A stretch of DNA of 64,000 bases from Chitinophaga pinensis (GTDB lineage: Bacteria; Bacteroidota; Bacteroidia; NS11-12g; UBA955): positions 62,001 to 126,000 of the forward strand of contig CAMBXL010000003.1 of NCBI GenBank assembly GCA_945871905.1, in the 5' to 3' direction. Numbering within the stretch: position 1 is the stretch's first letter; each line of letters starts with the position of its first letter. Shown here piece by piece: positions 14,084 through 58,736 of the stretch. Below the pieces are notes generated by a model. The model did no database searches. It was not told the DNA's origin and saw only the letters and a list, made by a program, of their open reading frames with translations. A program made the translations under genes and the position numbers.

Positions 14084-14180
14084 TCATCCTGAGCTTAGTC
14101 GAAGGGTCATTGCAAAAAAGAAAGACCACGAATCCCGCAGTACTGCGGGAGCAGCGAAGCTACCCAAAGAAAAAGCAAGT
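14084..14180. repeat. Dispersed intergenic repeat with perfect palindrome TCCCGCAGTACTGCGGGA
   Basis: This is part of an approximately 890-base stretch (13839-14725) without a credible gene. It contains a 'CATCCTGAGCTTAGTCGAAGG' type segment, commonly seen as a dispersed element in Bacteroidota genomes (my recollection), followed by an 18-base perfect palindrome at 14133-14150. Open frames crossing it have repeat-derived, non-protein-like composition. Confidence 0.6.
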
Positions 14181-45582: not shown

Positions 45583-45619
45583 TCCCGATAGCTATCGGGA
45601 GAGCGGTCGGGTGAGCGGC
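45583..45619. repeat. Palindromic repeat TCCCGATAGCTATCGGGA plus GGTGAGCGGC-type tail (copy 1)
   Basis: An 18-base perfect palindrome at 45583-45600 is followed by GAGCGGTCGGGTGAGCGGC. The GC-rich tail reappears at 46545-46567 in the same orientation. Shorter or damaged forms of the palindrome occur at 57518 and around 61006-61038. Confidence 0.75.
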
Positions 45620-57428: not shown

Positions 57429-57457
57429 TGGGCATAAATAAAAACATAAAAATATTT

Positions 57458-57487
57458 TTTGTCATTCCCGAAAAATACTTATATTTG
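57458..57487 (+). promoter_or_regulatory. Consensus promoter TTTG-N18-TATATTTG of the tRNA-Asn locus
   Basis: TTTG (57458-57461) and TATATTTG (57480-57487), 18 bases apart, are a full match to the Bacteroidota consensus. The predicted start is near 57492, ahead of the broken tRNA copy and the intact tRNA. Confidence 0.75.
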
Positions 57488-57503
57488 CACTCCTTTTAGG
57501 AAA

Positions 57504-57550
57504 TTCCTTGATAGCTCTCCCGATAGCTATCTGGAGGTTAGAGCGAGTGA
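57504..57550 (+). pseudogene. Broken tRNA-Asn copy: 5' part interrupted by a palindrome-like insert
   Basis: TTCCTTGATAGCTC (57504-57517) and GGTTAGAGCGAGTGA (57536-57550) are identical to positions of the intact tRNA-Asn 80 bases downstream. Between them, the D-loop AGCT is replaced by 18 bases (TCCCGATAGCTATCTGGA) that nearly match the palindrome TCCCGATAGCTATCGGGA seen at 45583. The anticodon loop, T arm and 3' acceptor strand are missing. Confidence 0.85.
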
Positions 57551-57583
57551 AAGCAAACTCTAATTAAAAAAAATCGGACAGAT

Positions 57584-57657
57584 TCCTTGATAGCTCAGCT
57601 GGTTAGAGCGAGTGACTGTTAATCACTAGGTCCCTGGTTCGAGCCCAGGTCAGGGAG
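57584..57657 (+). tRNA. tRNA-Asn (anticodon GTT)
   Basis: Complete cloverleaf of 74 bases without encoded CCA: acceptor TCCTTGA pairs with TCAGGGA, D stem GCTC/GAGC, anticodon stem AGTGA/TCACT with loop CTGTTAA (anticodon GTT at 57618-57620), T stem CCTGG/CCAGG with loop TTCGAGC, discriminator G. It follows a strong promoter and a broken copy of itself, and ends 10 bases before a terminator stem. Confidence 0.95.
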
Positions 57658-57667
57658 CAATAATGAT

Positions 57668-57701
57668 AAAAAGGTTATACTTTTATAGTGTAACCTTTTT
57701 T
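57668..57701 (+). terminator. Terminator after tRNA-Asn
   Basis: AAGGTTATAC (57671-57680) pairs with GTGTAACCTT (57688-57697) with one G-T pair and is flanked by A and T runs. Confidence 0.85.
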
Positions 57702-57839: not shown

Positions 57840-57940
57840 AATTTCCTGATAGTCACATACTCAATCATCGCATTATTTTGCATCTTTCGAGGAAAAGGGG
57901 AGCTTCACTGGACAAGCCATCAGAATTGATGGCTTTTTTT
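57840..57940 (+). repeat. Non-coding block A: conserved ~60-base segment, GGGGAGC and terminator hairpin
   Basis: The segment from AATTTCC through TACTCAATCATCGCATTAT, TTGCATCTTT and GGGGAGC (57897-57903) recurs as block B at 58302. It ends with AAGCCATC/GATGGCTT (57914-57935) and a T run. The layout (promoter-like box, short body, tRNA-tail-like GGGAGC, terminator) resembles that of the tRNA-Asn locus without the tRNA body. Confidence 0.7.
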
Positions 57941-57970
57941 GTCTATCACTGAGTTAAGCTAGCTGCATCT

Positions 57971-58301: not shown

Positions 58302-58398
58302 AATTTCCAAATAGTCAAGTACTCAATCATTGCATTATAGTTGCATCTTTTGTCAATAAGGGGAGCATCAAAAAGCCGCAAGTCCTGCGGCTTTTTTT
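58302..58398 (+). repeat. Non-coding block B: second copy of block A with a different terminator hairpin
   Basis: It shares with block A AATTTCC, ATAGTCA, TACTCAATCAT, GCATTAT, TTGCATCTTT and AAGGGGAGC (GGGGAGC at 58360-58366) in the same order and spacing. The hairpin AAAGCCGCA/TGCGGCTTT (58372-58394) with a T run differs in sequence but not in position. Confidence 0.7.
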
Positions 58399-58442
58399 AT
58401 TACATAATTTTTATTAGTATAGCTCTTTCAAAAACTATCAAT

Positions 58443-58736
58443 TTGCTGTTCTTAGTTTACATTCTTTTTTCTGAAAAACTCAATAAATACTACATCGGAA
58501 CTACAGATGACATAGAGCGAAGAGTTAAAGAACATAATAGTAAATTCTATGAAAACAATTACACTAGCAGAGGAATTCCTTGGCAAATGGCCTTTAACAT
58601 TTCTTGCCAATCAAGCAGTCAGGCTTTTAAAATTGAAAAACATATCAAGGCTATGCATTCAAAGAACTATATCCAGAATTTGATTAAATATCCTGAAATG
58701 ACTCAGAAATTACTTGATAGGTACAAAGATTTATAA
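58443..58736 (+). CDS. GIY-YIG nuclease-family protein
   Basis: About 98 residues. 'VYILFSEKLNKYYIGTTDDI' holds the VYI...YIG core of the small UPF0213/GIY-YIG family, followed by 'ERRVKEHNS' with the catalytic-type Arg, and the conserved Glu in 'QAFKIEKHIKAMHSK'. The only plausible start is TTG at 58443 (or the CTG after it); the open frame upstream runs through block B and its terminator and is not coding. Such stand-alone GIY-YIG genes are frequent in Bacteroidota; biological role unknown. Confidence 0.82.
   Translation: MLFLVYILFSEKLNKYYIGTTDDIERRVKEHNSKFYENNYTSRGIPWQMAFNISCQSSSQAFKIEKHIKAMHSKNYIQNLIKYPEMTQKLLDRYKDL

Follow-up and report, generated by a model that had tools for sequence, protein, structure and literature searches.

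A broken tRNA-Asn copy carrying a palindrome as the probable footprint of a tRNA-specific GIY-YIG element in Bacteroidota

Small GIY-YIG nuclease genes, the tRNA genes that they adjoin and damaged copies of these same tRNAs occur in association. In the window, a stretch of 64,000 nucleotides from a contig assigned to Chitinophaga pinensis, a broken copy of tRNA-Asn precedes the intact gene and a GIY-YIG ORF lies 0.8 kb downstream. We regard the broken copy as the probable footprint (at roughly two chances in three) of a tRNA-specific, free-standing GIY-YIG element resembling a homing endonuclease gene. The features of the window that bear on this reading are as follows.

45583..45600, forward strand: intergenic copy of the same palindrome, away from any tRNA (palindrome search)
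57455..57487, forward strand: promoter-like sequence, TTTTTTG (57455-57461) ... TATATTTG (57480-57487) (sequence)
57503..57581, forward strand: displaced 5' copy of tRNA-Asn with spacer, a 79-bp unit (sequence, self-alignment, genus alignment)
57518..57535, forward strand: palindrome TCCCGATAGCTATC(T)GGA in place of the D-loop AGCT (palindrome search, genus alignment)
57584..57658, forward strand: intact tRNA-Asn (GTT) (ARAGORN; Rfam RF00005, 65.2 bits)
57668..57700, forward strand: terminator-like hairpin behind tRNA-Asn (self-inverted match)
57886..57942, forward strand: probably a decayed tRNA-Asn 3' part followed by its own terminator (alignment to G001)
58359..58396, forward strand: second 3' remnant, AGGGGAGCATC, with a terminator hairpin, directly 5' of the nuclease gene (L276 alignment)
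58443..58736, forward strand: GIY-YIG nuclease ORF, 97 aa, probable TTG start (Pfam PF01541)

The unit opens with 15 nt made up of the last bases of the leader and the 5' bases of the intact tRNA-Asn (ATTCCTTGATAGCTC, 57503-57517), continues with the near-palindrome TCCCGATAGCTATCTGGA (57518-57535) and with GGTTAGAGCGAGTGA (57536-57550), and is closed by an A-rich spacer that runs to 57581. Its two tRNA-identical pieces are each 15 nt long and 100% identical to the tRNA (E=0.002, 5.5-kb search), and the 18-bp palindrome between them has a single mismatch to TCCCGATAGCTATCGGGA. The promoter-like sequence, which we take to be of the Bacteroidota type, reads the broken copy first and the intact tRNA-Asn second; its TATATTTGCACTCC is conserved in six aligned genomes of the genus. 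A preliminary description of this DNA had reported a broken tRNA-Asn copy with a palindromic insert in its D-loop before the intact gene, and the sequence, ARAGORN and the recurrence of the arrangement in relatives all show it to be real. The same description had rightly placed the palindrome at 57518 in one family with that at 45583, the latter being exact and the former one mismatch away. The events that it proposed (duplication of the tRNA, entry of a palindrome into the D-loop and loss of the 3' part) describe the sequence well but do not suffice as a single accident, because the unit is common to six genomes, has equivalents at many tRNAs and is linked to a nuclease across the class. Neither the presence of the unit in other genomes nor the GIY-YIG ORF had figured in that description.

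Downstream of the intact gene, the stretch 57886..57942 was aligned to the tRNA 3' end and terminator of G001 with a score of 39.5 (best of 300 shuffles, 36.5); this is a weak match, carried mostly by the terminator, and the stretch is probably a decayed tRNA-Asn 3' remnant. For the second remnant (58359..58396) the reference was locus L276, whose nuclease ORF comes after a tRNA-Asn 3' fragment that bears a palindrome. The TTG start of the window ORF was likewise set from the ATG of L276, and the PF01541 match (E=1.6e-12) was obtained on a longer ORF, 58341-58736. Further behind tRNA-Asn, G007 and the window genome share about 100 bp at 89% identity; this stretch lies at unequal distances from the tRNA end (L012 +124..+227 and L264 +1646..+1749) and may be another repeat.

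The locus was compared in 12 genomes of the genus on a tree of the neighbouring acetyltransferase gene. The preliminary description had called for a comparison with relatives; here the unit is present, in one to three or more copies, in six of the 12 genomes and absent from the other six. G006, G010, G011 and the window genome carry a single copy, G009 carries three, and in G005 three or more are present before the contig ends. This patchy presence corresponds to four changes on the neighbour-gene tree, at least three of which are forced by starred branches; since the spacer is common to the relatives, the unit probably had one origin. Across the six genomes the 5' tRNA part is 100% identical, the palindrome 96% and the spacer 79%. 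The position of the unit between promoter and tRNA, and the identity of its spacer, would suit a functional RNA leader, with the displaced 5' copy folding as part of the precursor to control how the tRNA is transcribed or processed. The preliminary description had named a conserved arrangement with compensatory changes as the sign of such a leader. Conservation was found, but the nine aligned units contain no compensatory change, and both substitutions inside the palindrome (in G000 and in G005 unit 1) disrupt pairing. With the unit absent from close relatives and its copy number ranging from 0 to 3 or more, we hold a leader to be highly improbable.

Within the window, two matches to the palindrome were found at up to three mismatches (45583 and 57518), against 0.02 expected from shuffles. 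The whole genome holds 12 such sites, seven of them exact, as the check proposed in the preliminary description brought out. Two of the 12 lie within broken tRNA copies: one is the D-loop site at 57518, the other is at G000:C1, where a broken tRNA-Met copy has it in the anticodon loop. Most of the sites that were inspected fall in A+T-rich intergenic DNA. By eye, neither edge of the palindrome at 57518 or 45583 bears the GTAG or CGTC tag that marks REP sequences. A further perfect palindrome of the same form, TCCCGCAGTACTGCGGGA, stands at 14133-14150 of the window with no tRNA near. The dispersal over 12 sites is what one would expect if a simple tandem duplication of the tRNA had been followed by chance insertion of a dispersed palindromic repeat and by decay, and the occurrence of remnants in G007, a genome without a small GIY-YIG gene, fits this explanation too. 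Against it stand the class-wide counts given below and the fact that the pattern recurs at many isotypes and across many families, with a placement of the palindrome that is specific to the lineage.

The surroundings of tRNAs were aligned to the tRNAs themselves (33 in the window genome and 28-32 in each of five more genomes), and displaced copies were accepted at a score of at least 32, a value exceeded in 2 of 1,808 null comparisons. In the window genome such copies lie upstream of 4 of the 33 tRNAs and downstream of one. They were found in all four other genomes of the genus that were examined, and at none of the 31 tRNAs of G032, which belongs to an outgroup genus of the same family. Most contain a palindrome in the D-, anticodon or T-region, and palindrome-bearing remnants adjoin Met, Val, Ala, Ser, Gly and other tRNAs. 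Upstream of tRNAs the copies mainly represent the 5' part; those downstream correspond to the 3' part and in many cases include a terminator. Tandem copies can occur on either side. In the five genomes of the genus, displaced copies accompany 4 of 12 nuclease-linked tRNAs and 16 of 144 others, a weak enrichment (p=0.0498) that was computed with 260-bp flanks, which miss fragments behind the nuclease. G007 has displaced copies and no small GIY-YIG gene; homing genes are lost after fixation, and such a loss would explain these copies. tRNA-Ser(TGA) occurs twice with the same leader near two contig ends (G000:C14:54844 and C17:106), and one of the two has upstream of it a broken copy with the palindrome TCCCGAAGCATCGGGA.

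A gapped search pattern for any palindrome within a D-loop gave five matches in 17 genomes of the genus, one of them a tRNA copy. The D-loop-plus-palindrome pattern, applied to 108 genomes of the order, matched in this genus alone (nine genomes), which at first made the feature look confined to the genus. This view was corrected by the nuclease search: the pattern misses other lineages because their palindromes lie mostly in other arms.

In order to sample GIY-YIG genes without bias to the window protein, we searched eight genomes with the Pfam family and obtained 38 matches, 23 small and 15 long. Fourteen of the 23 small ORFs follow a same-strand tRNA within 0.8 kb and one follows a tmRNA; one of the 23 was not fetched and was scored as a miss. 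None of the 12 long proteins fetched (of 15), UvrC-like by length, lies behind a tRNA. The four small GIY-YIG genes of G000 are found behind tRNA-Met (C2, which we take from its sequence to be of the initiator type), tRNA-Asn, tRNA-Leu and tRNA-Met (C1).

The window protein matches 225 of 395 genomes of the class. From these matches the best-scoring part was fetched (29 other loci, then 60 regions of a longer list), so that the sample leans towards relatives of the window protein, and many of the genomes are draft assemblies. All fetched loci together contain 136 distinct small GIY-YIG ORFs. For 101 of them a tRNA or tmRNA on the same strand lies no more than 1.2 kb upstream (median gap 56 bp); not one of the 136 has solely an opposite-strand tRNA or tmRNA upstream. 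A partial copy of the same tRNA stands behind 76 of the 101 linked ORFs and, in 32 of the 101, upstream of the tRNA; behind 25 no fragment was detected. Among the 35 unlinked ORFs, several lie at contig or locus ends or in arrays, and 19 have a tRNA-like stretch nearby. The linked isotypes include Met, Asn, Leu, Val, Pro, Arg, Ala, His, Thr, Ser, Phe, Asp, Lys and Gly. At L263 (G011:C49) a tmRNA precedes the GIY-YIG gene, behind which the 3' end of the tmRNA is repeated, terminator included; this extends the pattern beyond tRNA.

In most fetched loci about 300-450 bp separate the tRNA from its fragment and are occupied by one GIY-YIG ORF, unlike a tRNA-integrated genomic island, which has an integrase-bearing element between tRNA and 3' repeat. 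At tRNA-Leu, G003 (without nuclease) and G005 (with nuclease) are 90% identical to about 85 bp behind the tRNA and align again further on. The interval between the aligned flanks is a net 250 bp longer in G005, where it contains the nuclease gene and a repeat of the tRNA end together with its terminator. G003 has an unaligned stretch of its own there, so this empty site is not perfectly clean. We also considered whether the GIY-YIG stop codon generally falls within the tRNA fragment, and dropped the idea as this was the case in only 18 of 64 instances.

Palindromes inside colinear tRNA remnants, that is, fragments matching the tRNA on both sides of the palindrome, were detected at 48 of 83 tRNA-linked loci, against 6 of 415 trials with a tRNA of another isotype. 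This difference, and the finding of the same palindrome in the upstream and downstream copies of one locus, make chance insertion of a dispersed repeat very unlikely. The palindromes replace the D-loop, the anticodon arm, the variable/T region or the T/acceptor junction. Their usual form is (T/C)CCCG...CGGG(A/G), and the core CCCG...CGGG is present in 48 of 66 distinct locus-positions. At 12 loci, by a strict test, palindromes flank the intact tRNA on both sides, and in seven of these (L301, L323, L329, L337, L340, L351 and L369) they occupy, as judged by eye, the same place on both sides.

An alternative is a mobile element, short and palindromic, with a preference for tRNA-like hairpins; it would act independently of the nuclease, both being drawn to tRNA neighbourhoods. 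In keeping with this, one genome can hold several palindrome families, and the dispersed repeat TTCGACAGGCTCAGCATGAC has AGGCT swapped for TCCCGATAGCTATCGGGA between L254 and L255, so that palindrome replacement occurs outside tRNA copies as well. However, CCCG..CGGG palindromes number 105 in 76,911 bp inside nuclease modules and 20 in 157,394 bp outside, a density 10.7-fold higher in the modules than in the flanks, and the position of the palindrome follows the nuclease tree described below. We therefore judge such an independent element rather unlikely.

The nuclease tree was built from 82 proteins and 78 columns, and many of its forks are not resolved. The tRNA label requires 29 changes on it, against a shuffled mean of 52.3 (none of 200 shuffles as low). 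For host family, 60 changes compare with a shuffled mean of 63.4, and 10 of 200 shuffles were as low; the nucleases cluster by tRNA isotype and not by host family. The tRNA-Leu(UAA) nucleases of the window genome, of G001 and of another family form one group with 99% SH-aLRT support. The palindrome-bearing arm requires nine changes against 14.0 (1 of 300 as low) and, for tRNA-Asn alone, two against 4.6 (4 of 300 as low). The catalytic residues of the GIY-YIG family, Y, Y, G, R, H and E, are kept in 78-82 of the 82 proteins, and dN/dS is 0.10-0.22 in the six pairs in which dS is not saturated.

Free-standing homing endonucleases are recognised by a GIY-YIG domain with intact catalytic residues in an ORF of its own adjoining the presumed target gene, and this is what was found here; the patchy distribution and the site specificity of lineages are further traits of homing genes that these genes share. 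Isotype clustering could also arise from long vertical inheritance beside one tRNA. Such clustering, together with purifying selection, would be expected of vertically inherited, domesticated proteins of the tRNA locus that are not mobile. We consider this unlikely in view of the patchy distribution (225 of 395 genomes), the near absence of host-family signal and the flanking target duplications.

From these sequence patterns we infer, for the homing-like GIY-YIG element, a cycle in which alleles that lack the element would be cut by the nuclease in the cognate tRNA gene. A copy bearing the element would serve as template for the repair; the locus would regain an intact tRNA, now followed by the nuclease gene, and the halves of the old tRNA would end up displaced to either side. 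The palindrome would mark, as a scar, a copy whose target site is destroyed and which is no longer cut, a role supported by its lineage-specific place; it could equally be a site bound by the nuclease. Tandem arrays may be produced by repair or by unequal exchange between repeated fragments. In the window the cycle would be an old one, with the nuclease retained, the 3' remnants decayed and one 5' remnant left. A broader and more tentative proposal, to which we give slightly less than even odds, is that minimal selfish elements with one nuclease gene each may sit behind essential tRNA and tmRNA genes throughout the class, being isotype-specific, rebuilding the tRNA that they cut and protecting themselves by the palindrome-swapped arms of old copies.

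The closest parallel that we found is SegB, which, like others of its kind, is a free-standing GIY-YIG homing endonuclease of T-even phages encoded near tRNA genes, with reported cutting in tRNA-containing DNA and with tandem amplification of the tRNA region, probably via microhomology between a tRNA 5' end and the segB 3' end; no isotype preference is reported (PMC13096335). The two systems share a GIY-YIG gene adjoining tRNA genes and tandem copies, but the present genes lie in bacterial chromosomes, encode proteins of about 100 aa in lineages tied to tRNA isotypes and are accompanied by truncated, palindrome-bearing tRNA copies. No phage record matched the window protein at E<=0.01 (tblastn), and its matches to PHROG homing endonucleases were weak (E=0.0014 and 0.0016).

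In Allomyces mitochondria, the mobile endonuclease gene ORF360 at ATP6 brings with it a replacement for the end of the target gene. As would be the case here, the carried copy keeps the target gene functional and the old end is displaced; unlike the present element, ORF360 concerns a mitochondrial protein gene, and we know of no palindrome-marked copies in that system. The rtT repeats behind tyrT of E. coli resemble the present loci in being tandem, containing a tRNA end and adjoining a tRNA gene; to our knowledge, they involve neither a nuclease gene nor palindrome replacement. REP/RAYT palindromes and Rickettsia palindromic elements are short and dispersed, some lying inside genes (PMC3733652). 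In this they resemble the palindromes described here, which differ from REP/RAYT in the lack of a GTAG or CGTC tag and in the linkage to a GIY-YIG gene. Our literature searches, which covered papers outside subscription journals and preprint servers, brought up nothing that appears to describe GIY-YIG genes located behind the tRNAs of bacterial chromosomes, or tRNA copies marked by palindromes.

If true, the proposed explanation would account for a puzzling type of tRNA pseudogene in this bacterial class, and would mean that a large family of nuclease genes, specific to isotypes, resides at essential tRNA genes of ordinary chromosomes. It would also connect short dispersed palindromes, for whose spread there is no explanation, with a candidate enzyme and with defined target sites. 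The target can be predicted for each element, namely the linked tRNA and the palindrome-replaced arm, which makes homing in bacterial chromosomes directly testable.

Several fetched loci depart from the simple layout of one tRNA, one nuclease gene and one fragment. L337 is an array of four units, each made of a nuclease and a tRNA-Asn 3' part, with a period of 379 bp, and L326 has four GIY-YIG genes in an array behind tRNA-Pro with a period of 322 bp. Five GIY-YIG genes form an array at L296/L350 with no tRNA in reach, and L339 is also among the loci with tandem arrays. At L030 (G028), the terminator behind tRNA-Asn is succeeded by the tRNA 3' end in reverse complement, an arrangement that amounts to a long DNA palindrome spanning the terminator.
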